Source: an uncultured Lachnospiraceae bacterium (GTDB lineage: Bacteria > Bacillota > Clostridia > Lachnospirales > Lachnospiraceae). From it: a stretch of 41,810 nucleotides of DNA. Within the stretch, counting starts at the first letter, position 1. The number at the start of each line of letters is the position of its first letter. Below the pieces are notes generated by a model. That model saw only the letters and a list, made by a program, of their open reading frames with translations, made no database searches and was not told the DNA's origin. This document shows positions 14,339 through 41,344 of this stretch, in pieces. The DNA is taken from the NCBI GenBank assembly GCA_947570615.1, contig CANOVJ010000033.1:1-41810 (forward strand), in the 5' to 3' direction. The position numbers were made by a program, and so were the translations under genes.

Positions 14339-14352
14339 GTTGGCTCCTTTCT

Positions 14353-16032: not shown

Positions 16033-16078
16033 ATGCTGATTCCTTTCTCTTTTTTCAGTGACAAGTCTTTCTTTTATT

Positions 16079-16972
16079 TTACTCCTTAACCGACCCCATT
16101 ACCAGTCCGGAGATCAGATACCTCTGCAGGAACGGATAGATCAGCAGCAGGGGAATCACCGCCACCACGATCTTTGCGGCGTTTAAGTTCCTGTTGGAGA
16201 GCTCCGCCACATTCTCCAGTGCGGCGCTGTTGGCGGCGTTTTTGACCAGCTCCTGGAGATCGATGTTCAGGGACTGGATATAGGTCATGATGGGATAGTC
16301 CTCCACCCTCTGCATATAGATCAGTCCGCCGAAGAAGTCGTTCCAGCTTCCCACGATGCTGAACAGAGATACCGTGGCGATGGAGGGCTTGGCGCAGGGC
16401 ACCATGATCTGGAGCAGCACCTGGAACTGGCTGGCCCCGTCGATGATGGCCGCCTCCTCCAGCGCTTTGGGCACGCCCTTGAAGAAATTCATCAGCAGGA
16501 TCACACTGAATACCGGCACCGCTCCCGGCAGGATCAGGGACCAGATGGTGTTCAGCAGGTGAAGGTTTTTCACCACGATATAGGTGGGGATCATGCCGCC
16601 GTTAAAGAGCATGGCGAAGATCAGCAGATTCATGTAAAGGTTCCTGGCGGGGAACTCCCCCTTCGATCTGGTCATGGCGTAGGCCATGGGAACCGTGATC
16701 ACCAGGTTCAGCGCCAGCGTCAGCACAACCCGCACCACGGAAATCCCGAAGGAATGCCAGAACTGGGAATCCTCCACGATCCTTTTGTATGCCAGGGCGG
16801 TAAAATCCACCGGCACAAGCCCTACCCGGTTGGCGGAAACCGCCGCGCTGCCGCTGAAGGAGATCGCCACAATGTTGATCATGGGAAGCAGACAGATCAG
16901 TCCCAGCCCGATGACGATGATATGAATCACCACATTTCTGATTTTTGAACCCGTACTTTTGTTATCCAGCAT
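16079..16972 (-). CDS. Carbohydrate ABC transporter permease, LplC/YtcP type
   Basis: A 297-residue inner-membrane permease of the binding-protein-dependent MalG-like class, with six predicted helices (first at ~13-35, last at ~262-282). The EAA loop that contacts the ATPase is EEAAIIDGASQFQVLLQIMV (about 177-196). An extracytoplasmic insertion (about 225-255, QSLNIDLQELVKNAANSAAL) before the last helix is typical of the LplC/YtcP subgroup. ATG at 16972 has GGGAGGTG upstream. It pairs with the LplB-type permease encoded immediately upstream. No dedicated ATPase is encoded in the operon, so a shared MsmX/MsmK-type ATPase elsewhere is expected. Confidence 0.93.
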   Translation of the reverse strand: MLDNKSTGSKIRNVVIHIIVIGLGLICLLPMINIVAISFSGSAAVSANRVGLVPVDFTALAYKRIVEDSQFWHSFGISVVRVVLTLALNLVITVPMAYAMTRSKGEFPARNLYMNLLIFAMLFNGGMIPTYIVVKNLHLLNTIWSLILPGAVPVFSVILLMNFFKGVPKALEEAAIIDGASQFQVLLQIMVPCAKPSIATVSLFSIVGSWNDFFGGLIYMQRVEDYPIMTYIQSLNIDLQELVKNAANSAALENVAELSNRNLNAAKIVVAVIPLLLIYPFLQRYLISGLVMGSVKE

Positions 16973-16991
16973 TTTTCTGCACCTCCCCCTC

Positions 16992-17909
16992 TTAATAGAT
17001 CCGCTGATTGGTCAGCTTTTCGGTGATCTTGTTGGCTCCCACCAGCATGATCAGAGCAACGATGGAACGGCAAAGGCCAACCGCCGCGCCGAAGCTGTAC
17101 TGCCTTCCCACCAGACCGATCCGGTAGATGTAGGTATCCAGCACGTCGCTCACCTCGTACACAATAGGCGAATACAGGTTGTAGATCTGATCGAAGCCCG
17201 CGCTTAAGACGCTGGTCAGGTTCATGGCCGTCATCAGTAAAATGATGGGCAGCATGCCGGGAATGGTGATATGCCACACCCGCTTCCACCAGGACGCGCC
17301 GTCGATGGCCGCCGCCTCGTGAAGCCCGGCGTCGATGCCGGTGATGGCCGCCAGATAGACCACCGAGTTGTAACCGAATTCCTTCCACACGTCCGTCCCG
17401 ATCAGGAGCTTGCGGAACACGTTGTTGCTTCCCAGGAAGTTGATCTTCTCAAATCCCAGGGAGGCGATGATCTGGTTCACGGAGCCGTCGATGTTGAACA
17501 GGTTCATGGCAACCGCCGCCAGCACAACCCAGGAGAGGAAGTGAGGGAGATATACGATGGTCTGAACGGTTTTTTTCAGGAATTTCATCCGGATCTCATT
17601 GAGCAGGATGGAAAAGGCGATGGACAGAAGCATTCCCAGGATAATCTTCCCCAGGGCGATGATCAGCGTGTTGCGGATCACCCTGCCGATATCGGGAAGG
17701 GTAAACATATAGGTGAAATGCTTAAGTCCCACAAACTGGGATCCGAAGAGGCCTTTGGCAGGGACGAAATCCTGGAAGGCCATGATCAGCCCGAACATGG
17801 GCAGATAACCGAAGATAATCAGGAAAACCATTCCCGGCAGCACCATGGCATGGTATTGCAGGGAGTTTTTATTTTTCGTTGACGAGATGGACGATTTATT
17901 TTTTTTCAT
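16992..17909 (-). CDS. Carbohydrate ABC transporter permease, LplB type
   Basis: A 305-residue permease with a basic N-terminus (MKKNKSSISS) followed by six membrane helices. The EAA loop is HEAAAIDGASWWKRVWHITI. A GxFGSQFVGLKHF segment after the first helix is characteristic of the LplB/YtcP uptake systems. ATG at 17909 is 13 bases after AAAGGAG; the ATG at 17921 (MVIK) sits almost on top of that sequence, so the start is uncertain by four codons. A longer frame to 18059 overlaps the lipoprotein gene and is not credible. It forms a heterodimer with the LplC-type permease in the next gene. Confidence 0.92.
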   Translation of the reverse strand: MKKNKSSISSTKNKNSLQYHAMVLPGMVFLIIFGYLPMFGLIMAFQDFVPAKGLFGSQFVGLKHFTYMFTLPDIGRVIRNTLIIALGKIILGMLLSIAFSILLNEIRMKFLKKTVQTIVYLPHFLSWVVLAAVAMNLFNIDGSVNQIIASLGFEKINFLGSNNVFRKLLIGTDVWKEFGYNSVVYLAAITGIDAGLHEAAAIDGASWWKRVWHITIPGMLPIILLMTAMNLTSVLSAGFDQIYNLYSPIVYEVSDVLDTYIYRIGLVGRQYSFGAAVGLCRSIVALIMLVGANKITEKLTNQRIY

Positions 17910-17932
17910 CTTGATAACCATGCTCCTTTCCC

Positions 17933-17964
17933 AAAACAGGCACGCCTTTCGGTATGCCTGTTTT
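17933..17964 (-). promoter_or_regulatory. Intercistronic hairpin after the binding-protein gene
   Basis: AAAACAGGCA and TGCCTGTTTT form a 10-bp perfect stem, extended by two more pairs, around a small loop. On the minus strand the stem ends with TTTT and then GGG. Hairpins placed like this after solute-binding-protein genes often protect the upstream message or partly stop transcription, so more lipoprotein than permease is made. Here that is inferred from position only. Confidence 0.5.
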
Positions 17965-17979
17965 ACAATAATCATTTTT

Positions 17980-19680
17980 TCAGTTTCCCATCTGCTCTTT
18001 GATCTCCGACGCGATGGTGTCGCCGCCCTGGGATTTCCAGTTGGATACGAAGGTGTCAAAGCTCGCGTCCAGATCCTCGGTACCGGTCACGATCTTGATG
18101 AAGCTCTCCTCCTCCAGGGTCTGCAGATTCGCCCAGTTGGTCTTCATGGTCATGGTGGTCTGAGGATATACCGGAGTGATCCAGTTGTAGACGTCGCTGT
18201 CGTTTAAGTAGGTGAGCATATCTACGCCCTTGCAGCGGGAGTGGATCTTGCACCAGCCTGTGAGCTCGCCGCTTCCCTCCTGGTAAGCCTTGATGGCGTC
18301 ATAGTTGGTGCGCTCCTCGGCGCTGCTGATCTCTTCCTTTGTGGCCTGACCGTCAAGGGCCGCCTTCAGCTCCGCGTACTCCTCTAACAGGTAGGTGCTG
18401 GATTTCACCTCAATGTTGTAGGGACGGGCGGTTCCGTCTACGCCCTCCTTTAAGTAGCTGTCCACCTCGGGATACTTTTCAAGCAGCTCGGGGGAGGTCA
18501 TCATATCGTCGTAGATCAGGTTCAGGATCTGGATGGCGATCTCCGGATACTCGAAATCCGCGCTCACCACCACAAATTCCCCGGTGGCCTTATAGTGGGT
18601 GCAGTTCACCTTCCCCTCGCTGTTGACCACCACGTAAGGCTCATACACCGCCTTGTTGTTCAGGGTATAAACATTGTTCAGAAGCCAGTCCGGCACATGC
18701 CAGGAGCCGAACACGATCCCGCACTGTCCGTTTACCAGAAGGGAGGTGATATCATCCCAGGTTCTGGTTCCCAGCTGCTCGTCGATGATGCCCTCCTGAT
18801 ACCAGTCTCTCACGATGGAAAGGGCCTGTTTCATCTCGTCTGTGGTGGAGCCGTAAACCAGCTCCCCGCTCTCGTCCTCGTACCAGTGACGGGGATAAGC
18901 GCCCACGCTGTAGGCGATGGTGTTGATCATGTTGGCGTTGTCGGAGCTGGTGGCCGTCAGGGCGGGATCAAAGGCCATGCCCACCATCTTATCCACGTTC
19001 TCCGGATTGCCGTCGATAAAGGCCTGCGCAACCGCCTTCACCTCGTCCAGGGTCACGAAGCGGTCGCCGTCCTCGTCAATCTTAAGTCCCAGGGTCTCCG
19101 CCCAGTCGCTCCTGACCCAGAACATACCCGGGCCCGCGTCCGAGGCGGTGGCGGGAAGGGCCATCAGCTTTCCGTCATAGGTTACGTCCGCAAGGGCTCT
19201 GCCGTCGAAGGAATCATAAAGGCCCTTTATATAATCGCTTGCATAATTTTCATAGACGTCGGTCAGATCCGCGATGAGCTCGTTCTCGTACAGCTCCGTC
19301 AGTTCATCCTTAGAGGCCACCTTCATGATATCGGGAAGCTCTCCTGCGGAGAGTGCAAGGGAAACCTGACGATTGTAGTCGTCTCCGTTGTTGGCCTCGA
19401 ACTGATCCACGATATCGACATTCAGCTCCTGCTCCACCATGCGGATGTAGGCGTTGTCCTCGTAATTGTCTCCCTCGGGGAATTTGGGGTCGGCCGTGGT
19501 CTGACGCCCCATGGTGATGGTGACCTTCTCCCGGTCCGCCGGATCTGCCGCCGGCGCGTCGCCCCCGGCTCCCGCACTGCTGTCATTGTTCCCGCCGCCT
19601 CCGCCGCAGGCTGCCAGCGATAAGGCTGTGACAGCTGCAAGGGTCAGCGCGGCCGCTTTTCTGAAAAACTTTTTCCTCAT
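17980..19680 (-). CDS. Sugar ABC transporter solute-binding lipoprotein (LplA/YtcQ-like)
   Basis: A 566-residue extracellular binding protein that should capture an oligosaccharide and deliver it to the two permeases. It begins MRKKFFRKAA, followed by a hydrophobic core and lipobox LAAC with the lipidated Cys at position 25, then a Gly/Ser/Ala-rich spacer. The large size and DREKVTITMGRQ start of the mature domain place it in the family-1 extracellular protein group associated with LplBC permeases. ATG at 19680 follows GAGGAGG. It is the first gene of the operon (binding protein, two permeases, GH13, GH31) and is divergent from the response-regulator gene. The ligand is probably an alpha-1,6-linked gluco-oligosaccharide, judged only from the enzymes. 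Confidence 0.92.
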   Translation of the reverse strand: MRKKFFRKAAALTLAAVTALSLAACGGGGGNNDSSAGAGGDAPAADPADREKVTITMGRQTTADPKFPEGDNYEDNAYIRMVEQELNVDIVDQFEANNGDDYNRQVSLALSAGELPDIMKVASKDELTELYENELIADLTDVYENYASDYIKGLYDSFDGRALADVTYDGKLMALPATASDAGPGMFWVRSDWAETLGLKIDEDGDRFVTLDEVKAVAQAFIDGNPENVDKMVGMAFDPALTATSSDNANMINTIAYSVGAYPRHWYEDESGELVYGSTTDEMKQALSIVRDWYQEGIIDEQLGTRTWDDITSLLVNGQCGIVFGSWHVPDWLLNNVYTLNNKAVYEPYVVVNSEGKVNCTHYKATGEFVVVSADFEYPEIAIQILNLIYDDMMTSPELLEKYPEVDSYLKEGVDGTARPYNIEVKSSTYLLEEYAELKAALDGQATKEEISSAEERTNYDAIKAYQEGSGELTGWCKIHSRCKGVDMLTYLNDSDVYNWITPVYPQTTMTMKTNWANLQTLEEESFIKIVTGTEDLDASFDTFVSNWKSQGGDTIASEIKEQMGN

Positions 19681-19720
19681 GATATCTTCCTCCTCTATTC
19701 TCGGTTCTGTTGATGAATTC

Positions 19721-19750
19721 ATTATAGGCAGGACGTCCCGTCTCTGTAAA
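19721..19750 (-). promoter_or_regulatory. Promoter of the binding-protein operon
   Basis: On the minus strand TTTACA (19745-19750) is 18 bases from TATAAT (19721-19726), a good sigma-A match. The spacer contains the 8-bp palindrome GGACGTCC. It lies about 40 bp upstream of the lipoprotein start codon. The AraC-type regulator encoded divergently may bind upstream, but I cannot identify its direct repeats. Confidence 0.65.
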
Positions 19751-19802
19751 TGCAACGTTTTTCTGCTTTATAAAACATTTTACAGATGTTGGATTGTGCA
19801 TG

Positions 19803-19831
19803 TTGTTCCTCCCTGCGGAGGATGATATAAT
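19803..19831 (+). promoter_or_regulatory. Promoter of the two-component system genes
   Basis: TTGTTC (19803-19808) is separated by 17 bases from TATAAT (19826-19831). The spacer contains the inverted repeat CCTCC-CTGC-GGAGG. It lies about 59 bp upstream of the response-regulator start. Together with the leftward promoter at 19721-19750 it forms a compact divergent control region of about 210 bp. Confidence 0.65.
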
Positions 19832-19889
19832 CCTTTTTGTAAAAGAGGCGTACATATTTATTGAAGGAGCGGGAATAAGAGGTGGGTTT

Positions 19890-21095
19890 ATGTATACAGT
19901 GCTGGTGGCAGACGATGAGAAGCTGGAGCGGGATCTGATCCGATTTTTACTGACAAGGGATTTTTCCGGCAGATTCCGTATTCTGGAGGCCGCCCATGGG
20001 GAGGAGGCCCTGAATCTCATCCGGCAGGAAAAGGTGGATATTCTTCTGACCGACGTGCAGATGCCCTTCCTCTCCGGCATCGAACTGGCCAGAGGGGCGC
20101 GTCTTCTCACGCCCGATATGGAAATCCTGTTTTTCAGTGGATTTGACGATTTTGAATATGTAAAAAACGCCCTGCTGCTGCGGGCGGTGAATTATATTTT
20201 AAAGCCTGTGAATCCGGAGGAGTTCCACCAGATCATCAGCGATATCTTAAGCCAGCTCGATTCCAGAGTCATCACCTTTAACAAGTCCACTTCCTATTAT
20301 AATGAGAGCTTTTATGACCGGCCAGGGCGCGATAGGCCCGGACGCGATGCCAGGCCCGGCGCGGAGGAGAAACCGGCACAGCCGTATGAGAACGCCCCTT
20401 CCGCTCTCCGGTCCGATCAGATGCTGCTGGAGAATATCTCTCTGGCGATCTCCCTGAAAAGGCCCGACCAGCTTGACGCCCTGGTGGAGGAGCTGATTCT
20501 GCGATGCGCCGATTCCACCTCCCATTCGCCCATTTACATACGACACACGGCGATTTCCCTGCTCCAGATCGTCATCGCAGCCATCCCGTCCCTGAGTGAC
20601 GCCGATTTCGAGGCGGCGGCCGAAAAAATCTACACGCTCCGGCACTTTTCCGATATCAGAGAGACGATTCTGCACTATACCACGCTTCTGACCGATTCCC
20701 TGCATCAGGAGGTGGACGGAGCCAACTATTCCGTCCTTCTGGTAAAGCAGTATATCGCGGAGCACTACGGGGAGGATCTGACCCTGAATCTTCTGGCGGA
20801 GCAGGTCTACTTAAGCCCCAACTATCTGAGCAATATGTTCACAAAGGTGACCGGATGCTCCCTGCACAAATACATCAAGCTGCTGCGCATGAAAGCGGCC
20901 AGGGAATTTCTTACCGGCAGCAATATGAAGATCGTTGACATCTGCCGGGCGGTGGGGTATTCCACGCCCTCCTACTTTATCAAGACCTTTCAGCAGATGT
21001 ACGGGGTCACCCCCAGCGCCTTCCGCGTGGGCGCTGCGGCGTCGCAGAGCATTGACCCGGATAGTCAGTCCCCGCAGACACAGATACAGACTTAA
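19890..21095 (+). CDS. Response regulator with AraC-type DNA-binding domain (YesN-like)
   Basis: A 401-residue transcription regulator. The receiver domain (about 1-120) has the acidic pair D8/D9, phosphoacceptor D55 in LLTDVQMP, and conserved Lys in YILKPVNP. A linker with GRDRPGRDARPG repeats follows, then a poorly conserved middle region, and a C-terminal double helix-turn-helix of about 100 residues (DLTLNLLAEQVYLSPNYLSN and the IVDICRAVGY-PSYFIKTF half). ATG at 19890 has AAGAGGTGG seven bases upstream; the frame is open to 19794 but the promoter lies inside that part. The kinase follows by 21 bp. It most likely activates the divergent transport operon. Confidence 0.95.
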   Translation: MYTVLVADDEKLERDLIRFLLTRDFSGRFRILEAAHGEEALNLIRQEKVDILLTDVQMPFLSGIELARGARLLTPDMEILFFSGFDDFEYVKNALLLRAVNYILKPVNPEEFHQIISDILSQLDSRVITFNKSTSYYNESFYDRPGRDRPGRDARPGAEEKPAQPYENAPSALRSDQMLLENISLAISLKRPDQLDALVEELILRCADSTSHSPIYIRHTAISLLQIVIAAIPSLSDADFEAAAEKIYTLRHFSDIRETILHYTTLLTDSLHQEVDGANYSVLLVKQYIAEHYGEDLTLNLLAEQVYLSPNYLSNMFTKVTGCSLHKYIKLLRMKAAREFLTGSNMKIVDICRAVGYSTPSYFIKTFQQMYGVTPSAFRVGAAASQSIDPDSQSPQTQIQT

Positions 21096-21116
21096 TTTTT
21101 AACAGGAGGAAGCGCC

Positions 21117-22898
21117 ATGTCCGGCAGACTGATAACCTTTTTTAACAACCTTACCTTTCGCAGAAAAATATTGTCCATCTGTATCCTGATCAGTCTGATC
21201 CCCATGCTTTTGTTCGGGATCGTAAGCTATATCCAGATCAGCGGCCAGATGATCCACCGGGAGGAAAACAACCTGAACGAGACCCTGCGGCAGACGGCGG
21301 ATTCCATCGACTACAAGCTCAATTCCTATATGGACGCGCTGAACATGGTTCTCTGGCATGATCCCTTAAAAACCGGCCTTCTGAAGGACTACGCCACCAA
21401 CTATGATCAGTATATCTTTTATAAGGAGGAGGTGGATCCTCTCTTTCTCACCATCCGTTCCCTGAACACGGATATCAGCACCGTCTCGCTCTATACCTCG
21501 GCTCCGGGTCTGCATCCCCACGGAGACTATGTACTGCGGATGGAGGCAGCCCGGGATATGCCCTGGTATGAACAGGCCCAGAGGGCTACCCGCCCCTTTT
21601 TTCAGGTATCGCAGGACGGTTCCCGGCTCTTTCTGGTCTGCCGGATGTATTACTCCTATGCGGCCCCCACTTCGATCGCGTGTATCACGGTAAATATGAG
21701 CGATCTGTTCGGCTCCGCCCAGAATCTGGTGGAGGGAAGCTACTGCTTTCTGCTGACCGACGCAGAGGGCAATCCCATTTACAGGACGTCCTCATTCCCG
21801 GAGGACGCGGGCAATATTCCCCTCTCCTACCAGGAGTCCTCCTACCAGGAGTCCTCCTACCAGGAGTTCTCCTCCCAGGAGCTTTCCTCTCAGGAGCTCA
21901 CAAGCGGCGATATTCCCTCCGACTATGTGGCCACCTGCTACCGTCTCAACAACGGTTCCTGGACGGCATGGCTCTATCGCCCCTCCGGCGAGCTTCTGAC
22001 CGCCTACCGCCATTTTCAGCTCACGGCGGTTTTGCTGGCGCTTTTGTGTATCGCCGTCTCTTTTCTGGCGGCCGCCTGTCTCTCCCGGGTCATGTCCAGA
22101 CCTCTGGAGGCTCTCTCCGAGGACATTTTGCAGGTAGAACAGGGAAACTATGAGATTGCCGCAAAACGCCCGGAGCACTGCCCGCGCAGAGATGAGGTGG
22201 GTAAGCTCCAGCGCGCTTTCCGGGCCATGGTGGTTCAGCTGAACCATCTGATCAACGAGGTGCTGATCGCCCAGATTGAACAGCAGAAATATGAGCTGCG
22301 CATCCTCCAGTCCCAGATCAATCCCCATTTTCTGTACAATTCCCTTTCCCTGATCAATGTGCAGGCGATCATGGCAAACCAGAACGGAATCAGCCAGATG
22401 GCGCAGCTTCTGTCCACCTTTTACCGGACCATGCTCAATAAGGGAAAGAGCATGACCACCATCCGGGATGAACTGGAGAACACAAAGGCCTATGTGACCA
22501 TCCAGCAGATCATGCATTCTTACTCCTTCGATGTGACCTGGGATATCGACGAGAGGGCCCTGTCCTTTTCGGTGCTGAACCTGATCATCCAGCCTCTTGC
22601 GGAGAACGCCATCCTCCATGGCCTGGACCACAGGCAGGCCCCCGGCAAGGGCATGCTCACCATATCCTGCCGTCTGGAGGAGGATTTCATCGTCTTCCAG
22701 GTCATCGACAACGGCTGCGGCATGTCCGAACAGGACTGCACCACCATCCTCATGGCGGACAGCAGGGGATACGGCGTTCAGAATGTACACCGCAGAATCC
22801 AGCTCTACTACGGGCCGGAATGTGGCCTGCAATACCGCTCCACTCCGGGCTCAGGCACCTGCGCCATCCTGCGGCTTAACAGGATCGGGCAGGGATGA
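21117..22898 (+). CDS. Sensor histidine kinase, YesM-like
   Basis: A 593-residue membrane kinase. Helix 1 (~15-35) and helix 2 (~300-325) flank an extracellular sensor domain of about 260 residues. A HAMP segment follows (SRVMSRPLEALSEDILQVEQ), then the His_kinase motif INPHFLYNS with phosphoacceptor H404, and an HATPase domain with QPLAENAILHGL (N box) and DNGCGM (G box). The sensor domain contains five in-frame copies of a 15-bp repeat (21825-21899) encoding S-Y/S-Q-E-x, just before helix 2. ATG follows AGGAGG. The partner is the AraC-type regulator upstream; the signal is probably an extracellular sugar, perhaps presented by the binding protein. Confidence 0.95.
   Translation: MSGRLITFFNNLTFRRKILSICILISLIPMLLFGIVSYIQISGQMIHREENNLNETLRQTADSIDYKLNSYMDALNMVLWHDPLKTGLLKDYATNYDQYIFYKEEVDPLFLTIRSLNTDISTVSLYTSAPGLHPHGDYVLRMEAARDMPWYEQAQRATRPFFQVSQDGSRLFLVCRMYYSYAAPTSIACITVNMSDLFGSAQNLVEGSYCFLLTDAEGNPIYRTSSFPEDAGNIPLSYQESSYQESSYQEFSSQELSSQELTSGDIPSDYVATCYRLNNGSWTAWLYRPSGELLTAYRHFQLTAVLLALLCIAVSFLAAACLSRVMSRPLEALSEDILQVEQGNYEIAAKRPEHCPRRDEVGKLQRAFRAMVVQLNHLINEVLIAQIEQQKYELRILQSQINPHFLYNSLSLINVQAIMANQNGISQMAQLLSTFYRTMLNKGKSMTTIRDELENTKAYVTIQQIMHSYSFDVTWDIDERALSFSVLNLIIQPLAENAILHGLDHRQAPGKGMLTISCRLEEDFIVFQVIDNGCGMSEQDCTTILMADSRGYGVQNVHRRIQLYYGPECGLQYRSTPGSGTCAILRLNRIGQG
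21825..21899 (+). repeat. Five-copy 15-bp coding repeat in the sensor kinase
   Basis: Five consecutive 15-bp units of the type TCCTACCAGGAGTCC encode SYQES, SYQES, SYQEF, SSQEL, SSQEL (residues 237-261). The first two units are identical, and later ones diverge step by step, the usual look of a repeat that grows by slippage at one end. Copy-number change keeps the frame, because 15 is a multiple of three. Confidence 0.9.
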
Positions 22899-31140: not shown

Positions 31141-32589
31141 CTACCTCCTGGCCGGCTTTTTCTTCTTATGTACCGGCTTCCTTTTCTTCTTCCGTGCAGG
31201 GCGTTTTCTGCGTTTTCCCGGGGCGGATCTGCGTCCGGCAATCAGGAAGTACGCCGCGCCTCCCAGCACTGCCGCAGCTGCCGCCGCACAGCCTGCAAGC
31301 ACAGGCATGCTGATCTTCATTTTATTGCTCCCCTGGACGCCGCCGTTGGTCTGATCCAGGCGGATTTCCTCCCCGGCGGATTCATTTTCCAGCCGGTCCG
31401 TCTGCCCCTCTCCGTCAGAGGTCTGACTGTCCGTAATCTGACCATTCTCCAGGCCCTGGCCGCCTGTACCGGCCACATGGATACTGGCCGGCCCGTCCTC
31501 GGGGGCCACCACGGATACCCTGGCCTTCACCGGCGCTCTGCCGGATCCCGGGGTGGAGGGCTTTCCCACAACCTGTGCCGCCGTCCCCTGACTCATATCC
31601 ACCAGCCCGCTCATAAGCTCCCTGTCTCTGACCACGGTGGACTGGATCGGGTGAACCTCGCCGGATTCATGGACAAAGGACTGACTCTCGTCATACAGAC
31701 CCTGGCTCACATTATCGCTTTCCGAGCCCTGGCCGCCCGCGCCGTTTCCCCCCTGGCCGCTGCCCGCGCCGTCTGTGGAGGGAGCGCCCGCGCCGTCCGC
31801 TCCTCCCGCTGTATTGCCACCGTTTCCCGTATCCATGCCCGCCCCGGTGCTGCGCATGGCCTGGACCAGCCTCTCCGTCATGTCGTTGGCCTCCTGGGAG
31901 GTGATATCCGCCTTCCCCAAAAGCGCCTGGGCCTCCTGGATAAGCTTCTGCAGATTTTCCCAGGCCAGGGCCGTGTAATCCTTCTCCTGACATTCCATGG
32001 CCCACTGCAGATACTCCTTCAGCGCGCCGGACACATCGTAGACGACGCCCTGCCCCACCTGCATATCCACCGGGTCGGAGATTCTCGCCACCATGGGAAC
32101 CTTTCTCCCGTAAACCCCGTTGGCCGTCTGGAACGAAGCCCCCCGATAGCTGACGGCCACGTTCAGAACCTGTGAGGAGTCCTTTGGCTGCACCCTGGCC
32201 GCCCCCAGCTTTAAAGTCTCGTTTCCGAAAAGGGTCCGGGTGGATGCCGCATAGACATTCAGTACGCCGGTGCTCTCGTCATAGAACGCGTTCTTTTCCA
32301 CACCGGAGAGCTCCGGCGCGAAGTCAAAGCCCACCGTCACCTTATCCCGGCTCTCCTGATCGATCTCAAGCGCCACGGAGACCGCCGTGATCCTTTCCTC
32401 GGTGGAGTTGCTCATGGTCAGAAGCACCTCCACCTTATCCTCGTTCTGGATCAGCGACACCGCATCGCGGGTCACCCGTTCCGCCTCCTGCTCTGTGGCG
32501 GCGGCCTGTAACGGAGCAAGCAGCGTCAGCATGCCGGAGAGCATCAGTATGCGGGATAAAAAACCTGTTATTTTTCCGTATTTTTTCAC
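31141..32589 (-). CDS. Membrane-anchored protein with cohesin-like and FIVAR-like domains
   Basis: A 482-residue surface protein starting at GTG 32589, six bases after AGGAG; a longer frame overlaps the preceding gene. Order: signal peptide (1-~31, ending LQAAATEQ); a beta-rich domain (~42-160) with cohesin-like spacing (VEVLLTMSN, ITAVSVALEID, YDESTGVLNVYAAS, LKLGAARVQP, SFQTANG); a three-helix FIVAR-like module (~187-247, YTALAWENLQKLIQEAQALL); a Gly/Ser/Asp-rich linker (~250-290) and further low-complexity stalk; a membrane helix (~424-452); and a 30-residue tail almost entirely Lys and Arg. No LPxTG signal is present. It lies 19 bp downstream of the dockerin-bearing M60 peptidase gene, so it is the obvious candidate to hold that enzyme at the cell surface. 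Confidence 0.75.
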   Translation of the reverse strand: MKKYGKITGFLSRILMLSGMLTLLAPLQAAATEQEAERVTRDAVSLIQNEDKVEVLLTMSNSTEERITAVSVALEIDQESRDKVTVGFDFAPELSGVEKNAFYDESTGVLNVYAASTRTLFGNETLKLGAARVQPKDSSQVLNVAVSYRGASFQTANGVYGRKVPMVARISDPVDMQVGQGVVYDVSGALKEYLQWAMECQEKDYTALAWENLQKLIQEAQALLGKADITSQEANDMTERLVQAMRSTGAGMDTGNGGNTAGGADGAGAPSTDGAGSGQGGNGAGGQGSESDNVSQGLYDESQSFVHESGEVHPIQSTVVRDRELMSGLVDMSQGTAAQVVGKPSTPGSGRAPVKARVSVVAPEDGPASIHVAGTGGQGLENGQITDSQTSDGEGQTDRLENESAGEEIRLDQTNGGVQGSNKMKISMPVLAGCAAAAAAVLGGAAYFLIAGRRSAPGKRRKRPARKKKRKPVHKKKKPARR

Positions 32590-32608
32590 CTTTATCTCCT
32601 GTTCCTCC

Positions 32609-35600
32609 CTATTCTGCCATCCCGCCGTTTTCCCCCTCCGCAAGCGGGGTATCCCTTAAGGTAATCTGCGGCAGCACGTCGGGAATCCGGTAAGGCATGG
32701 TATCGCTCACCAGCCGCTGTCCCTCGTTGGTCAGCGCGTCGTTCACCCGATAGAGCTGGGCGCGCACGCTTCCACTTATGGCGGGCGTCTGAGCGTTTTC
32801 CGGTTCAATCCAGTAAATCCAGATTCCGTCGCTGACCTCGCCCAGCATTCCCTCCTCAGGCGCTTTAGCCAGGATGATCTGGTGGGCGATGAGCTCATTG
32901 TCCCCGTTCACGCCGCCCACAATGGAGCCCTCCTCATCGTAGAGCACCACCACGTTGTAGGCGGGATTGCCCTTATAGCTTCCGGTAAATACCAGCGAGC
33001 CCGCAGGGATCACCTTCGGCTCCATGCCGGGTTTCTTTTCGTAGGTGTAGTCTTCCTTCAGGATTCCTGCCGCCCCGTTTGTATCACCCTCTCTGACGCC
33101 AAAGGAAATACTGTCTCCCGTGGGCCCGAGCAGGTCAATCTCGGAAACGTTCATTCCGCTCTGGCCCAGAGCCTTAAACCTCACATAGGCCGCCTCGCAG
33201 GTATAGATCCAGGAATCCTGCTTATTGTTCTGGAAATAGACGGTTCCGCTTCCCTTCGCTCCCTCAAATCTTCCTCTCTTAACCTGCGTCCAGTTCTCGC
33301 CGTCCAGACTCACCTCGATCAGATAGTCGCTGACGGGCGTTCCGGAAGCCACCGTGTACTTCAGGCCGCATATGGTGAGCACCTGGTTGAAGCGGATCAG
33401 GATCACCGCATCCTCCGCCATGCTCTGTCCCTCATAGGTGTTGCCGTAATCGTTGTCCGCAATCTGGTAAATATGGGGCGTCGGCTCCGGTGCGCAGGGG
33501 TCTTCCTCCGTCCCCTCCTGCTGTGCGCCGTCATGGGCGCAGGTCATGTTGGTGGTGATCGTCCACAGGGACTTGTCATGGCTTCCGTCGTGGGAGATCC
33601 TCACATCCCCAAGCCGGGCCGCAGCGGAGCGGTAGCCGAACTTATCCACCGCCGTCACGTCATAGGTCATCACCCTGTTGTTCACCGTGGAGACCGTATC
33701 CGACCAGGTTTTCTCCGTGGAAAAGCCCACGATCTGACGCACCGGTTTTCCGTCCTCATAATGGGTTCTGCCGATCTCGTATCCCAGGATTACATTGGGG
33801 TCAGCGTCGCACTGTATGGAAATATTCACCTGATTGGGGATCTTCCCATCCACTTTTACGCTGCTGCCTGCGCCGATCACATTGCGCTCCTTTACGCCTG
33901 CCTGGCTGCCGTATGCGATCTCATAGGCCCTGGCGTCGTCCGTCAGGTAATACAGAGCTCTCTCCTCCTTCTCAAACCCTCCCGCATAGCGCAGCGTCTC
34001 CGCGTCCGGCACAAGGCCCCAGCGCATAAAGAACTCTGTCAGATCCTTTCCGGCCGCCGCGCAGGCAAGGCGCATGATGTTCTGGTCCGCTCCGCCGTTC
34101 AGCGTAAGGCTCCCGGGGGCGCTGGAGGGATTGCGGCTGTAGGAATCCACCCTGGCGTAGAACAGGTTGTCGAACCGCTCCCTCCAGGTATCCCAGGTTT
34201 TGAAATTGTACCCTCTGTCATAAGCCAGATGGAGCTGCCAGTACATGGCAAGGTGGGTAAACACATTGGATGGCCTGCCCACTGTGTTGGAGGTCACCTT
34301 TTTATAGACCTCCGGATATTTAAAGCGCACGGTGGCGTTGGTGTCCCTTGCCTGGGCGAGCTGGGCGAAATAGTTGTTGGTCACCTCCGCGATGGCGTAG
34401 CTTCCCTGATTAATGTTGTGGCCGATCTCATGGGCGATGCCCCAGCCAAAATATCTGCCGCTCACATACTCCCCGTTCTCACCCGTCACCACAGGGGAGG
34501 ATGTGGCCAGCCCGGACACAGAGCCCCACTCGATTCCGATATGGTTCCCGGAGGCATACATGAAGGCACCCGCAAACATTCTCATATAACGGATATTCAG
34601 ATGCTGGGCCGGCGCCCGGTCCGTGGCCGGCGTATCCGGCGTATCTCCAAGGCCCTTGTGCTGATAGAAGAACGCCATCATGTCGTCCATGGCGCGCAGA
34701 GAGTCGTCAAGCTTCTGCGCCCGGCTCTCCAGGTCGCCCTTTCCAAGTCCCGCCAGAATCTGCTCACCGGATACGGACAGCATCATCTGATCCAGCATGA
34801 TCTCCGTGGCTCCCAGAATACAGTTCTGCTTATCGTATTTTCGGTTTACCTTATTGTTTTCTCCGGCTGTCTCGTGTATCTCCTGGTGAAGCCTTTCCTG
34901 GGAGGCCACGTGCTCGTCCAGAGCCCTCACATAATCGGTCACCAGCTTTCTTCTCTCCTGATCGTCCGCAACGCCCCAGAGATTGAGCACCGGCTCGTGG
35001 GCTCCGCCGTTTACCCGCACGGCGTATCTGTCACTGGCGTTATTTCCCGTATATTTGATGTAAAGAGGGCCGCCGCCCTCAAAGGACAGGCTCTGGATGG
35101 CCGGTATGGTCACCTCGTTGCGTCCCACCTTAAGCGTGGCCACCTCCGAGGCGAGGGCTCCCGCCTCCGCGTGATATTGGGTGGCAATCAGCTTAAGCGC
35201 GGTGTCTGACCCGGTTTTGAGCTGATTGTGTCCCACATAGATGACGATCTTCTCTCCCTCGTAGGCGGTAACCCCCAGAGGCTGCCAGGCGTTCAGCCCG
35301 CCAAAGCCCAAATGGGAATCCCTGGCCGGGGTGATGTTGGGATTGATCTGCACCACATCGTTAAAGCCCGTCTCCAGAAGCCCTCTGGCATTATCCAGCT
35401 CCCTTTGCAGAACCGACCGCTCCGGATGATACTCTCCGCTCTCGGGATCCTTCGTATCCAGACGCTGCTGCAGCCCGTTTATGGTCTCCAGCGTGACGTC
35501 TTCCTTCAGAGTGGTGTGAAGATCATCCCCGTACAGGGCCAGGATATCGTCCTCCAGAGAGTCGTAGTAATAAAAGTTCACTTCCGCAATCACAATGTTG

Positions 35601-38254
35601 CGCAGGTTATAGCTGCGGGCAAAGCCCAGACGGATCTTATTGGCTGTAATCGGCTCCTCCAGCTTGATCAGGTAGAACTTCCTTCCGTTCTCATCCGTCC
35701 TCTGCAGCACATTGGCTCCCTGCGCATAAGCGCCGTCCGGGTGCTCCTGATCGTAGTAATATACCGAAACCCTGCCGTAGGAGGCCAGATCCTCCGTCTC
35801 CGCAAAGGCGATATAGCTCATCTTATAATAATCGTCCAGGGTAAAGAGAAGCCCCTTATCCGGCGACACATAGGCCGCACCGTCGTCCCAGTCCAGAACC
35901 TGGTAGCCGGAGCCGAAGTCCTTATCCACCGTCCCCAGAGCGCTCTTTCTGTTTCCCTGTGCCGGCACAGACGCATCCCCGGAGCCGGCCGTGTCCAGAG
36001 GGCTGGATATCATTTCCCCTCTCACATGGGTGGCCCCGGTGATATGGGCGCTCACCTTTCCTTTTCCGTTGGACTTGTTGATCAGCTTATACTCCGGCAT
36101 CTTCGCCGGTTTGAGCGTGATGGTCCTGGCCTCCGAGATGAGAGAGGGATTGCTCTCCCCCAGGTCGTTCAGACCAGTCACATACACCTCATATCTGGTC
36201 TCATCCTCCAGTCCGGTGATCTCAAACCGATTCTGCCCGATCCGCTCTGCCGCCTTTATAAAGGAGGCGTCCCCCGCCTTTCTGTAAAAGACGTTATAGG
36301 AATCCGTATCCTCCATATCCTTCCAGCTCATTCGCACACACCGGTAGCCCCCGGTGGCCCTCACATTGTCCGGCGGGGAGGGCTTTCTGGTCACCACCGG
36401 CACGGCCAGCACCGGCGGATCGCTCCATGGGCTGGACCAGTTTCCGTTGACGGAGCGCACCCGCACCTGATAGCTCTCATTGTTTTTAAGCTTGCCGCCC
36501 TGGAAGGATTTCACCTCCAGGTTATTGGAGGAGGCGCGCACGCTCTCCACCTTTCCGTCGTAGCGGATCTCCACCTCATAGCCGGTGATGTTCCTCTGGG
36601 CGTCCCATGTAAGGGCAAAGGATTTATCCCCGCCCTTCGCGGTAAGACCGGTGGGTACGTTCATCTCCGGCTCGGGGATCCTGTTTTCGGTATCGTTGAG
36701 AAATTCAACCTTGCTGATCTCTGCCAGAGTAGCATTATTGTTCATGGCGGTGATTTTGAAGGTCACCTTTTTGACCGCAATCTGACCGCCAAGGTCAATG
36801 GTAATTCCGGGCCCCTGTGCGCCGCTCTGTCTATTGTCCGAACCGGTCAACACTCGGGCAGCCGAAACGGGCCTTCCGTCCCGGATCTCCACCTCCACAG
36901 GCCCTTCGTCCGTCTCAAAGAACACGCTGCCGCTCTGAACGGACTCGCCGCCCATGGAGATCACGATCTGTTCCATCTCCCTGCCCGGGGCGTCCGTATC
37001 CTGCCCGGCTCCGTCCCGGGTAAGATTGAATCCCACCTCCACCGGAGCCTCGGAGGAGATCACGGTATTGGCCCGGTTTCCCAGCGTGAGCTCGCCGGCG
37101 TTGTCCCCCCGCAGAATACTCTCCGGGTCTCCCTGCACCGTAGTGGTATCCGCATTGTAGTTTACCTTTACCGCGCCCGGGGCTACCGCCCTGCTCAGCG
37201 TCGCCTGGGTATGCGCGCCGGCATTCAGCCTCGCCCGGCTGTTGGTAAAGAGCTGTAAATCCACAAGGTCTGTCTTTCCGCTGCCGTCCAGGTCCGTCTT
37301 TTTGTCCGCCGTGCCGGCCGCGCCATTTTCCGCCGCCCGGATAGCCTCCATGATGGCGTCCCTGTCGCTGTCGTCCAGGATACCGTTTCCGTCCACGTCG
37401 CCGATCAGCATCACCCCCGGATGCGGGCTGGCCGCATCATAGGAAAAGCCATCCAGCTCCACAAAGCCGGTATGGACCTCCGCGGTACTGATCACGCCCC
37501 CGCTGACCTGGATCCTCTGTTCGTATGGCAGAAATCCGGATGCGGACAGCTTCAGGGTATACTCCCCCGGCGTCAGGTCATAAAAAAACACGGACTCCTT
37601 CTTCGCATCCTGCACAAGATTTACGGTTTTGCCGCCGTTTATCTGCTGGCCGCCGCCATCCTCCAGTGAGACGGCGACGCCCACCCTGGCCGGAAGGGCG
37701 TTCCTCAGCGCCACCTCCACTCCGCCCGCAGGGTCAGTGGACGCCGCTGTGTCATTCCAGTTTCCATTGACCGAGAAGGTCGAAGGCGATACTGAAGGAG
37801 TCGCCGTCGCGGAGGGAGACGGAGTCTGAGATGCCGTGGCAGAAGGGGAAGCCGATGACGTCGGAAAAGCCGTCGGCGTCACAGATGCTGTCGGAGAAGG
37901 ACTTCCCTCCCCCTCACCGGCAGCTCCACCGGCCGGACTGCCGGGCACAACGCCGTCCTCCCCCGTGCCGGAGGGATCTGCCTGATTCCCCGGCGCGGGC
38001 GTCTGCGTGGCCTGAACGTCTCCCTCTGCATCCGGCGTCCGGGCAGGGGTAGCCACAGGCGAGGGGCTGCCTGTCTGATCCTGCTCCACACCTCCCTCCG
38101 TCCTTTCACTGCGCGAAACATCATTTCCCCCCGGTTCCTGCTCCGCCGTATATCCTGACGCCGCTTCGCCTCCCGTGTTCTCCACAGCATTCACGGGAAG
38201 AATGCTCATCATGATCAGGCTGCATGTCAAAAGCCAGGCAATCCTTCGTTTCAT
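32609..38254 (-). CDS. Secreted multidomain M60-family metallopeptidase with dockerin (mucinase-like)
   Basis: A 1881-residue secreted protein. Order: signal peptide (1-~24); Ser/Thr/Pro-rich low-complexity segment (~35-165); a beta-sandwich module (~185-275) with PGEYTLKLSASGFLPYEQ; a type-I-like dockerin (284-343) with two calcium loops D286-V-D288-G-N290 and D321-L-D323-G-S325; a discoidin-like region (~345-530); two fibronectin III domains (533-~622, 624-~715); another discoidin-like region (~740-930); the M60 catalytic domain (~975-1420) with HEIGH at 1275-1279 and the third zinc ligand E1290; and a C-terminal F5/8-type carbohydrate-binding region (~1605-1715). M60 enzymes cleave O-glycosylated mucins. 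ATG at 38254 follows AAGGAG. There is no C-terminal anchor. It is the first gene of a two-gene operon. Confidence 0.9.
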   Translation of the reverse strand: MKRRIAWLLTCSLIMMSILPVNAVENTGGEAASGYTAEQEPGGNDVSRSERTEGGVEQDQTGSPSPVATPARTPDAEGDVQATQTPAPGNQADPSGTGEDGVVPGSPAGGAAGEGEGSPSPTASVTPTAFPTSSASPSATASQTPSPSATATPSVSPSTFSVNGNWNDTAASTDPAGGVEVALRNALPARVGVAVSLEDGGGQQINGGKTVNLVQDAKKESVFFYDLTPGEYTLKLSASGFLPYEQRIQVSGGVISTAEVHTGFVELDGFSYDAASPHPGVMLIGDVDGNGILDDSDRDAIMEAIRAAENGAAGTADKKTDLDGSGKTDLVDLQLFTNSRARLNAGAHTQATLSRAVAPGAVKVNYNADTTTVQGDPESILRGDNAGELTLGNRANTVISSEAPVEVGFNLTRDGAGQDTDAPGREMEQIVISMGGESVQSGSVFFETDEGPVEVEIRDGRPVSAARVLTGSDNRQSGAQGPGITIDLGGQIAVKKVTFKITAMNNNATLAEISKVEFLNDTENRIPEPEMNVPTGLTAKGGDKSFALTWDAQRNITGYEVEIRYDGKVESVRASSNNLEVKSFQGGKLKNNESYQVRVRSVNGNWSSPWSDPPVLAVPVVTRKPSPPDNVRATGGYRCVRMSWKDMEDTDSYNVFYRKAGDASFIKAAERIGQNRFEITGLEDETRYEVYVTGLNDLGESNPSLISEARTITLKPAKMPEYKLINKSNGKGKVSAHITGATHVRGEMISSPLDTAGSGDASVPAQGNRKSALGTVDKDFGSGYQVLDWDDGAAYVSPDKGLLFTLDDYYKMSYIAFAETEDLASYGRVSVYYYDQEHPDGAYAQGANVLQRTDENGRKFYLIKLEEPITANKIRLGFARSYNLRNIVIAEVNFYYYDSLEDDILALYGDDLHTTLKEDVTLETINGLQQRLDTKDPESGEYHPERSVLQRELDNARGLLETGFNDVVQINPNITPARDSHLGFGGLNAWQPLGVTAYEGEKIVIYVGHNQLKTGSDTALKLIATQYHAEAGALASEVATLKVGRNEVTIPAIQSLSFEGGGPLYIKYTGNNASDRYAVRVNGGAHEPVLNLWGVADDQERRKLVTDYVRALDEHVASQERLHQEIHETAGENNKVNRKYDKQNCILGATEIMLDQMMLSVSGEQILAGLGKGDLESRAQKLDDSLRAMDDMMAFFYQHKGLGDTPDTPATDRAPAQHLNIRYMRMFAGAFMYASGNHIGIEWGSVSGLATSSPVVTGENGEYVSGRYFGWGIAHEIGHNINQGSYAIAEVTNNYFAQLAQARDTNATVRFKYPEVYKKVTSNTVGRPSNVFTHLAMYWQLHLAYDRGYNFKTWDTWRERFDNLFYARVDSYSRNPSSAPGSLTLNGGADQNIMRLACAAAGKDLTEFFMRWGLVPDAETLRYAGGFEKEERALYYLTDDARAYEIAYGSQAGVKERNVIGAGSSVKVDGKIPNQVNISIQCDADPNVILGYEIGRTHYEDGKPVRQIVGFSTEKTWSDTVSTVNNRVMTYDVTAVDKFGYRSAAARLGDVRISHDGSHDKSLWTITTNMTCAHDGAQQEGTEEDPCAPEPTPHIYQIADNDYGNTYEGQSMAEDAVILIRFNQVLTICGLKYTVASGTPVSDYLIEVSLDGENWTQVKRGRFEGAKGSGTVYFQNNKQDSWIYTCEAAYVRFKALGQSGMNVSEIDLLGPTGDSISFGVREGDTNGAAGILKEDYTYEKKPGMEPKVIPAGSLVFTGSYKGNPAYNVVVLYDEEGSIVGGVNGDNELIAHQIILAKAPEEGMLGEVSDGIWIYWIEPENAQTPAISGSVRAQLYRVNDALTNEGQRLVSDTMPYRIPDVLPQITLRDTPLAEGENGGMAE

Positions 38255-38350: not shown

Positions 38351-38379
38351 AGTATATCATTCCCGACAAAATATTTCAA
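38351..38379 (-). promoter_or_regulatory. Promoter of the M60 peptidase operon
   Basis: On the minus strand TTGAAA (38374-38379) is separated by 17 bases from TATACT (38351-38356), a strong sigma-A match. It lies about 97 bp upstream of the start codon. The MITE-like element at 38419-38511 sits about 40 bp upstream of the -35. Confidence 0.65.
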
Positions 38380-38604: not shown

Positions 38605-41166
38605 TCAGTCCGCTGCCCTTAGCCGCTCCACGATACTCTGTTTCTCCAGATTTCTGAAACAGATATAAGGGATAACGATTGCTAAAATGATTAAAACCGG
38701 TGTACAGATCACCAGCGGCATAAGCGTAAAATGGAATGTCGCCGTCCAGTCGCCTGACACCATCATCCGAACGCCAACTGCCACCGCCAATGCTCCCAAA
38801 AGGCAGGACGCAAGCAGGGTACTTCCGGCATAATACATTCCCTCGCACATCAGCATATTCCGAAGCTGGCGTTTTGTCATGCCGATGCTCTGGATCATGG
38901 CAAATTCTTTCTGCCGGGAAACAATCGCCGTTGCCATCGAATTGACAAAATTCAGAATTCCGATCAGCGCAATGATAAAACTGACGGCAAATCCCAGCAC
39001 GGTATTCGCCCTTGTCTGCTCCTGATAGTGACGGGTCAGCGTAGACTTTGATGTGAAATTCAGGCTCCTGTCAACCTTGCTCCGGTAGTCCGTCAGCATT
39101 TCTCCGGCCTGCGGCCGGTATTCCTCCGCCACATCGAAAAACAGTTTCCGCAGCGTGTTATCCGGATACATTTCCCGGAATGTATCCGCCGGGAGATAGA
39201 ACGAGAGGAAATCCGCCGTGCTGCTGTTTACGCCCTCGGTAATGGTCGTTATATTCGCCACAATCGCCATAACCTCGTATTGCTGTCCGTTCAAGGTCAC
39301 CCTCTCGCCAACAGAATAGGTCGGCTGGATTTCCTTTTCGCCGTACTCAGCGCCCGTGGCCGCTTCCATTATCACATATCCCCCGGACAGGAATTTATCC
39401 TTATCAAAGTCGCCGTCAAATATCCGGCCCTCCTGCGCAAAGGTGTACAGTATCAGGCCGTCAACGCCATACAGAACAGAGGTGCATTCGCCACTGTCTA
39501 TCATATCGTGGTAGGCGTCTGCCAGCCCCGTGTCCGTTGCCTCAATATAGGCCAGTCTGTCGTCAGCGTTATAGTAGGCCTGGATGTTTTCAAGTGCCGG
39601 GGCTCCGATCTGATGGGTAAATACCTGTGAATACAGACGCCCTGTGGCCTCCAGCCCGGAAAGCCCCTCAATGCTCTGTATCAGCTCCGGGGAGATGGTT
39701 GTGCCGTAGGGGTTATAGGTTCCAAAGGTGGAAGAAACAGAGCTGTCCTCCACTTCAAAATCACTGATTACCGTCTGGCTCATGTATTTGTCAATATCAA
39801 AGCTTGCATTTTTCGCATAGATGCAGGACAGCAGAACCAGCCCCAGCGTCAGAGAGCAGATCACAGTAACCGTGCGCTTTTTGTTCCGCCCCAAATTAGC
39901 CAGCGCCATTTTCGGTATGCCTGCGCCGCCGGTGCTTTTCCTGATTTTCCGCCTGCCGGCCGTTCCCGTATCTGTGTAGCGCAGCGCTTCCACCGGGGAA
40001 ACCTTCCCGGCAATCTTCGCGGGCTTCCTGCAGGAAATCAGTACCGTCAAATAAGCGAACAGAGCGGAGCCCGTGAAGATATACGGATTAACAGCCGTTT
40101 TCGCTTTGTCTGCTGTCCCGGTAATCATAACCGGCACCAGAACAGCGCCCAGAAGATGCCCGATCAGAAGCCCGGCAGGAATTCCGATCAGCGACAGGCG
40201 GCCTGCCTGCCCGTATATCATTTTCTTTATCTGCTTTCTGGACGCCCCCAAAGTTTTCAGCCTGCCGTAAAAGCGTATATCACCGGCAACGGAAATCTGA
40301 AAAATATTGTAAATAATCAGATACCCGCTGGCAAATACCAGCGCCATGCAGATTGTCATGGGCAGAACTTCACGGCTGATATTTCGGTTCATGGTTGTAT
40401 CGTATGCCATATTGGGGGAGAGTTTCCTGTCCGAAAGCCCCGTATCCTTCAAAATCTGTTCCGCGGCCTGCTCCGGATTTTTGTCACTGTAAAGGTTCAG
40501 GTGGAGCATCCCCGTTCCAAAGATCTGGCCGTTTGCAAGCTGGGCCGCCTGGTCTGCGCCTGCGCATTCGGCCTGAATAAATGCATCCGATACCCACGCC
40601 ATACTTGCCATTGCTGCGGAATTTCCCTCCCAATAACCGGAGAGCGTAAAAACGCCGGTTGTGTATTCGCTGCCGCTCAGATCCCTGCGCCACCGAAGCG
40701 TGATTTTCTGCCCCAGTTCACAGGGCAGTCCCATCTTATCAAGGGTAAGAGTGTCCAAAGCGATTTCATTTTTCTGTGTTGGCATGGTTCCCGTCTCGGG
40801 ATAAGAAAAGCAGGAACGGGCATAGTTTTCATCGGCATAGCGGATTTCCACCTGCCGCCCGGTCAGCTCTTCGTTCTCCGCAATACCGATCACGATACTT
40901 TTTCCGAAGTCCCGGACAGCTTCATGGGCGGTCAGTTTCGCCATTTCCTCATCGGTCAGAGAACCGGAGCTTAAATGGCTGCCATATCCTGCCTGCTGGA
41001 AATTCATATCCCGCAAATTCGTTACGATGCTCTGTGACAGGACAAAGAGGGACGTAAACATCACCGTCGTCAGGATAATGGCAAAGACGGCGACAAAATT
41101 TCGTGTCCTGTTCGCCCTGAAGCTGCGATTTATCAATGTTCGTATGATTGTTTTTTGCTCTTTCAT
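38605..41166 (-). CDS. FtsX-like ABC transporter permease
   Basis: An 853-residue permease with two FtsX cores. Helix 1 is at about 22-45, a first extracytoplasmic domain of ~190 residues follows, then helices at ~255-280, ~305-330 and ~360-380, helix ~430-450, a second extracytoplasmic domain (~455-720), and three C-terminal helices. RKPAKIAGKVSPVEALR is the typical cytoplasmic link before the second half, and KEFAMIQSIGMTKRQLRNML near the end is an FtsX hallmark. Relatives work in peptide-antibiotic resistance or lipoprotein release. ATG at 41166 follows AAGGCGGTG. Its ATPase gene is directly upstream but only a 3' fragment remains, so the transporter is probably not functional unless another ATPase serves it. 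Confidence 0.9.
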   Translation of the reverse strand: MKEQKTIIRTLINRSFRANRTRNFVAVFAIILTTVMFTSLFVLSQSIVTNLRDMNFQQAGYGSHLSSGSLTDEEMAKLTAHEAVRDFGKSIVIGIAENEELTGRQVEIRYADENYARSCFSYPETGTMPTQKNEIALDTLTLDKMGLPCELGQKITLRWRRDLSGSEYTTGVFTLSGYWEGNSAAMASMAWVSDAFIQAECAGADQAAQLANGQIFGTGMLHLNLYSDKNPEQAAEQILKDTGLSDRKLSPNMAYDTTMNRNISREVLPMTICMALVFASGYLIIYNIFQISVAGDIRFYGRLKTLGASRKQIKKMIYGQAGRLSLIGIPAGLLIGHLLGAVLVPVMITGTADKAKTAVNPYIFTGSALFAYLTVLISCRKPAKIAGKVSPVEALRYTDTGTAGRRKIRKSTGGAGIPKMALANLGRNKKRTVTVICSLTLGLVLLSCIYAKNASFDIDKYMSQTVISDFEVEDSSVSSTFGTYNPYGTTISPELIQSIEGLSGLEATGRLYSQVFTHQIGAPALENIQAYYNADDRLAYIEATDTGLADAYHDMIDSGECTSVLYGVDGLILYTFAQEGRIFDGDFDKDKFLSGGYVIMEAATGAEYGEKEIQPTYSVGERVTLNGQQYEVMAIVANITTITEGVNSSTADFLSFYLPADTFREMYPDNTLRKLFFDVAEEYRPQAGEMLTDYRSKVDRSLNFTSKSTLTRHYQEQTRANTVLGFAVSFIIALIGILNFVNSMATAIVSRQKEFAMIQSIGMTKRQLRNMLMCEGMYYAGSTLLASCLLGALAVAVGVRMMVSGDWTATFHFTLMPLVICTPVLIILAIVIPYICFRNLEKQSIVERLRAAD

Positions 41167-41179
41167 TGGTATCACCGCC

Positions 41180-41344
41180 TTATTCTGCAATCCGTCCATC
41201 CTCGATACGGACGCATCTGTCTGCCTGCTCTGCGATCTCCGGGTTGTGGGTGATCATCACAATGGTCTGATGAAATTTCCTGCCGGTTTCCTTCAGAAGC
41301 TCAATCACCTCCGCGCCGGTCCTGCTGTCCAGATTGCCGGTCGG
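41180..41344 (-). pseudogene. ABC transporter ATPase, 3' fragment
   Basis: On the minus strand this encodes the last ~54 residues of an ABC ATPase of the LolD/MacB-like group: PTGNLDSRTGAEVIELL, the H-loop in IVMITHNPEIAEQADR, and the end IEDGRIAE before TAA at 41180. The protein similarity starts abruptly at Pro-Thr-Gly of the Walker B motif (normally DEPTGNLD). Upstream of 41344 the sequence reads TNLYP and then unrelated DNA, so Walker A, Q-loop and signature are missing. It directly precedes the FtsX permease, clearly its former partner. Insertion, deletion or an element boundary cut it. Confidence 0.85.

Follow-up and report, generated by a model that had tools for sequence, protein, structure and literature searches.

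A conserved X-dockerin/cohesin-like gene pair as a probable surface latch for an M60 protease in Lachnospiraceae

Background

One of the closest known counterparts of the gene pair described here is the type II cohesin/X-dockerin pair that anchors cellulosomes (C. thermocellum, A. cellulolyticus; structures 2b59, 4wi0, 4u3s, and 5k39). In solved cohesin complexes, the dockerin lies on the 8-3-6-5 face of the cohesin, and the X-module of solved type II dyads has a carboxypeptidase-D-like immunoglobulin (Ig) fold (PMC5141474). Single-cohesin (X82) and dockerin modules are also present in secreted C. perfringens glycosidases (2vo8, 2jh2, 2w1n), where the cohesins sit on the enzymes themselves, and the Limousia mucinolysome includes some peptidases with dockerins and a sortase-anchored scaffoldin (PMC12997984). 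For M60 proteins, Nakjang 2012 lists two with a type I dockerin and remarks that the Clostridium and Bacillus sequences shown in one figure lack evidence of an anchor (PMC3267712). Here, we analyzed a 41,810-nucleotide stretch of DNA (the window) from an uncultured Lachnospiraceae bacterium (contig CANOVJ010000033.1 of assembly GCA_947570615.1), in which the gene of an M60 protein, P0002, is followed by that of a membrane protein, P0001. The two probably form a dedicated X-dockerin/cohesin surface latch, with one M60 protease to one anchor.

Results

The pair is defined by these features of the window:
32609..38254, minus strand: M60 protein P0002, 1881 amino acids (open reading frame list, Pfam, PDB matches, genus alignment), with the domain order signal peptide, S/T/P-rich linker, X-module, dockerin, two fn3, M60, F5/8C, conserved C-terminal domain
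37451..37747, minus strand: X-module of P0002, residues 170-268, Ig/carboxypeptidase-regulatory-like, directly ahead of the dockerin
37226..37405, minus strand: dockerin of P0002 with two calcium (Ca)-binding loops, residues 284-343
31141..32589, minus strand: cohesin-bearing membrane anchor protein P0001, 482 amino acids, GTG start
32041..32469, minus strand: cohesin-fold domain of P0001, residues 41-183 (predicted structure, domain alignments)

A previous sequence-only reading had proposed a secreted M60 peptidase with a dockerin and no anchor of its own, followed 19 bp away by a membrane protein with a cohesin-like domain. Both open reading frames were found at these positions, and the intergenic distance is 19 bp when P0001 starts at the GTG at 32589. 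On inspection, the C-terminus of P0002 displayed no anchor signal.

The dockerin is complete, as that reading had described it: both loops are present (286/288/290/297 and 321/323/325/332), and their aspartate ligands are nearly invariant among 90 aligned members (D286 in 88, D297 in 89, D321 in 88, and D332 in all 90). Pfam Dockerin_1 matches the whole P0002 weakly (E 1.4, below the cut-off) and 78 of the 90 members at E<=0.1. An X-module stands immediately ahead of the two loops and is an addition to the earlier description, made from the letters. CarboxypepD_reg matches it in 69/90 members (E<=0.1), in agreement with the Ig fold of type II X-modules (PMC5141474). A profile of both modules finds solved X-dockerins across the two modules, with 4wi0_B as the best match (5.3e-8), followed by 4u3s_B.

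For P0001, the predicted model of the domain is a nine-stranded jelly-roll cohesin fold. Thus, the cohesin-like domain of the sequence-only reading, which a non-cohesin fold would have contradicted, stood this check, whereas its limits of 42-160 did not and extend to about 41-183. As matches to the model, type I cohesins equal or surpass type II when ranked by VIA Z.

The pair is not peculiar to the source genome. Within the genus, a P0001-type gene was present in 16 of 37 genomes and a full-length P0002-type gene in the same 16 (a 17th, G032, displayed fn3 matches only); the two were adjacent in all 15 fetched loci and in the window. At the family level, 35 of 397 genomes contained a full X-dockerin (36 matches, E<=3.5e-18), and the same 35 contained the cohesin-like domain (also 36 matches); G316 has both twice. 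In 33 of the 36 loci the genes are neighbors and in three they are fused; thus, the pairing proposed earlier held at the gene level in every family locus, with identical genome sets. Two of these loci are split over contigs (G078, G194), and one partner was recognized by eye, with a cohesin-profile score of 2.1e-8 (G147). The conserved pairing exceeds chance: it spans 31 genera of the family sample, with partner cohesin domains only 12-57% identical to that of the window.

These family counts are not independent of profiles A6 and A8, which were built partly from loci later searched; profile A3, for which only genus sequences were used, recovered 19 of these 35 genomes and no others. The X-dockerin profile matched 98/397 genomes in all at E<=0.001, many of them with short dockerin-only matches, and G261 presented a partial X-dockerin-like match (6.5e-9). 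A cohesin-like match in G417 (5.4e-4, 38 model positions) was dropped, as it lies inside an open reading frame that does not look related.

The M60 core was found in 29/290 genomes, 27 of them within the 35 with the pair; the others were G278 and G215, which are divergent. In these two (L234, L235), the M60 genes have weak X-dockerins and a secreted, beta-rich-looking protein just downstream. Against the cohesin profile, the downstream protein reached E 0.03 in G215 and no score in G278, and neither genome was counted among the 35; these proteins may be still more distant partners.

A contig scan with P0001 found no relative. With the M60 core, among the best 80 of 571 confirmed relatives, the partner lies just downstream in 72, and a contig edge falls within 309 nt in the remaining eight. 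Hungatella hathewayi, H. effluvii, and Eisenbergiella tayi are among the named organisms in these best 80. The named and unnamed sets overlap, as they share some contigs. The median intergenic gap of 82 separate pairs was 19 nt.

The anchor differs between lineages, which the sequence-only reading of a single locus had not addressed. Near-duplicate removal left 84 of 118 loci; three partners were cut by contig ends and two fused, leaving 79 to classify. The classes were 34 with a membrane helix, 13 with a TGD signal and a helix, nine with cell-wall-binding repeats, seven with LPxTG, one with a dockerin, seven with an fn3 tail, and eight others. These classes come from a hydropathy window and regular expressions, and the counts differed somewhat under a previous set of rules; Pfam and NCBIfam confirmed example anchors (choline-binding repeats, LPXTG_anchor, Dockerin_1, Big_2, fn3). 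Altogether, 64/79 complete partners carry an attachment signal. The partner with a dockerin (L116:4218-4880, 220 aa) has a stand-alone cohesin-like domain with a canonical dockerin behind it (Dockerin_1 1.8e-6); it may be a two-headed adaptor that connects the M60 protein to a scaffoldin.

In P0001 itself, the region behind the cohesin contains:
31855..31983, minus strand: weak FIVAR-like helical segment, residues 203-245 (E 0.033, below the cut-off)
31330..31722, minus strand: stalk with genus-conserved motifs, residues ~290-420
31234..31314, minus strand: C-terminal transmembrane helix, residues ~426-452 (hydrophobic stretch, genus-conserved)
31144..31233, minus strand: K/R-rich tail, residues 453-482 (sequence), presumably cytosolic

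Among the 16 genus members, the FIVAR-like insert was seen only in P0001 and L032.

The catalytic half of P0002 comprises:
36095..36655, minus strand: two fibronectin type III domains, residues ~534-720 (PF00041 9.3e-19, two stretches)
33845..34837, minus strand: peptidase M60 catalytic region, residues ~1140-1470 (PF13402 1.6e-12)
34418..34432, minus strand: HEIGH zinc motif, residues 1275-1279, with the third ligand E1290 at 34385-34387
33152..33463, minus strand: F5/8 type C domain (CBM32-like), residues 1598-1701 (PF00754 5.4e-9)

P0002 thus combines the PF13402 profile with the HEXXH...E zinc motif of Peptidase M60, and in PDB searches solved M60 proteins of C. perfringens match the catalytic region (E down to 6.5e-19). 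The zinc site had been read correctly from the letters: H1275, E1276, G1278, H1279, and E1290 are invariant in 16/16 genus members (one reads HEVGH), and HEIGH or HEVGH is present in 117/118 loci, a set that includes duplicate records of one genome. P0002 is an M60-type protease that probably cleaves O-glycoproteins, and mucin may be a substrate, judging by its similarity to solved glycopeptidases. The second M60 copy of G316 (L071, G316:C35) presents HVIGH instead of HEIGH in an altered sequence context and is likely an inactive paralogue that retains the X-dockerin and the cohesin partner.

Around the pair, we observed one candidate promoter:
38351..38379, minus strand: promoter-like site upstream of P0002, TTGAAA-17-TATACT with TG ahead of the second hexamer (consensus match only)

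It lies 97 bp ahead of P0002, in a region with five such sites against 3.2 expected by chance. The pair is preceded by an FtsX/MacB-like permease (38605-41199), likewise on the minus strand. Farther away, 11924-22898 appears to be a carbohydrate uptake locus, with GH31 (11924-14338), an alpha-amylase (14353-16032), and a solute-binding protein (17980-19755) on the minus strand, and an AraC-type response regulator (19794-21095) and a histidine kinase (21117-22898) on the plus strand.

Discussion

Conservation within the cohesin-like domain was compared with the face that solved cohesins use. Across 86 members, strands 6 and 5 had the highest mean conservation (2.26 and 2.00 bits), followed by strands 3 (1.80) and 4 (1.78). 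Strands 3, 5, 6, and 8 averaged 1.85 bits against 1.40 for strands 1, 2, 4, and 7 (Mann-Whitney p=0.0045), in a comparison that omits strand 9 (0.73 bits) and the short model strands 124-127 and 131-133 and assumes that the nine main model strands follow the cohesin order.

Several results weigh against a dedicated latch. By the rules used, 15/79 complete partners lack a membrane, wall, or dockerin signal. The conservation extends beyond the supposed binding face, with strand 4 nearly equal to strand 3, and strand 8 is poorly conserved (1.36 bits). The sequence routes to a cohesin are also weak: the search against PF00963 suggested by the sequence-only reading gave no match for the P0001 domain and matched 2/86 members (best E 0.012); Pfam, NCBIfam, and PDB searches with P0001 or its domain profile found no cohesin; and hhalign of that profile against cohesins gave values from 0.4 to 59%, varying with the cohesins chosen. 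In the hhalign controls, reversed decoys and unrelated domains stayed at <=2% with the single exception of F5/8C, which reached 30% against cohesins over 25 columns and only 0.6% when both sets of sequences, cohesin and F5/8C, were exchanged for others. The cohesin assignment was decided by the predicted structure.

The P0001 domain could have a cohesin fold and still bind a glycan, a host protein, or another ligand, while the P0002 dockerin uses another cohesin. Adhesin domains do appear in the fold list, from rank 44 on, and at least one Pfam cohesin (E<=0.001) is present in 21/49 pair-bearing genomes. Covariation over 81 pairs displayed no preference for the X-dockerin either, which ranked below average (permutation p 0.99 for enrichment; L152, L131, and L164 dropped as contig-cut). 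On the other side, the pair co-occurs one to one and is adjacent, conservation peaks on strands 5 and 6, which belong to the face that dockerins usually bind, and 28/49 genomes, including the source genome, have no Pfam cohesin at E<=0.001; therefore, the paired domain is the only recognized candidate partner there. We consider this alternative unlikely.

The earlier reading had also called for a search for other dockerin genes in the source genome (94.8% complete), which retrieved one X-dockerin and neither a Pfam dockerin nor a Pfam cohesin above the cut-off. The Pfam search also missed P0002's own dockerin; therefore, divergent dockerins could be missed too. PF00963 had one sub-threshold match elsewhere in this genome (E 0.148), and no multi-cohesin scaffoldin gathering several dockerin enzymes, as in a cellulosome or mucinolysome, was found in it.

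The fused proteins raise a second alternative, even less likely than the first: the X-dockerin and the cohesin may mainly be a structural joint that closes the enzyme on itself or links enzymes head to tail, with anchoring as a secondary role. Three family genomes fuse the M60 protein and the cohesin and add a second dockerin-like module after the cohesin; its Dockerin_1 match is above the cut-off for L074 and sub-threshold for L075, and in L076 the module was recognized by eye. The X-dockerin is retained, seen in two of them and on a separate contig in G194, although a latch between two proteins would be superfluous there; all three genomes also hold Pfam cohesins above the cut-off. However, the halves lie on separate proteins in 33/36 family loci, and the attachment signals of 64/79 complete partners would be needless for a purely structural joint.

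Finally, the genes could be neighbors merely through joint inheritance of an operon, the partner being a surface protein with an unrelated role. Distances of the cohesin-like domain are correlated with those of each of the seven M60-protein domains (Spearman 0.43-0.63), as shared ancestry alone would give, and the mirror-tree partial correlation was hardly higher for the X-dockerin (0.29) than for two other domains (0.25 and 0.20); with 81-84 pairs, the covariation and mirror-tree sets are small and dominated by ancestry. Nevertheless, we regard this explanation as very improbable: the pair persists across its 31 genera while the partner domains diverge, three loci fuse the two halves, and the searches retrieve both chains of one known complex.

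Under the surface latch that we favor, P0002 would be exported with the X-module/dockerin dyad near its N-terminus. P0001 would also be exported, its C-terminal helix threading into the membrane and its divergent cohesin displayed on the stalk. We infer that the dockerin would dock Ca-dependently on the 8-3-6-5 face of the P0001 cohesin; therefore, the protease would stay on the producing cell. In relatives, the putative joint of cohesin and X-dockerin is conserved, with exchange of the anchor behind the cohesin. More tentatively, and with less than even confidence, these domains may constitute a large unnamed cohesin subfamily, invisible to domain databases, whose sole role is to hold a single dockerin-bearing M60 protease. 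In this one-to-one detachable latch across gut Clostridia, the joint would be conserved, and the anchor behind it could change freely between membrane helix, sortase signal, wall-binding repeats, and dockerin adaptor; fused halves would act as a clasp, either within one molecule or head to tail.

If the two proteins do bind, then in about 9% of the family genomes sampled (35/397) a glycoprotein-cleaving protease is retained at the cell surface by a route that the open-access papers searched do not describe. The pair would also represent a new natural family of cohesin/dockerin pairs, and Pfam-based surveys would underestimate how widespread cohesins are in gut commensals. Mucus foraging by commensals would become testable with two small domains.

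In the open-access literature searched (PMC; most subscription papers lie outside this scope), a pair of the P0002/P0001 type was not found described. The parts are known; as far as the searches show, their one-to-one use, the unrecognized cohesin subfamily, and the anchor exchange are undescribed in that literature. P0002 shares the catalytic domain and the HEXXH motif with the M60 O-glycopeptidases (ZmpA/B/C of C. perfringens, and the Bacteroides and Akkermansia enzymes), for which no paired cohesin anchor was found described in the parts of the literature covered. Unlike the C. perfringens modules, the cohesin here is on an anchor protein, and no catalytic domain was found in P0001. With the Limousia mucinolysome it has in common the cohesin/dockerin display of mucin-active enzymes, but that system differs by its multi-enzyme scaffoldins and recognizable cohesins, and "M60" is absent from the main text of its description (PMC12997984). 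Compared to the type II cellulosome pair, the dockerin is near the N-terminus of a protease instead of on a scaffoldin, one enzyme meets one cohesin, and Pfam does not recognize the cohesin sequence. The likeness to that pair lies in a carboxypeptidase-D-like Ig X-module joined to a two-loop dockerin, and in a nine-stranded cohesin on an anchored protein with a role in surface attachment (PMC5141474).
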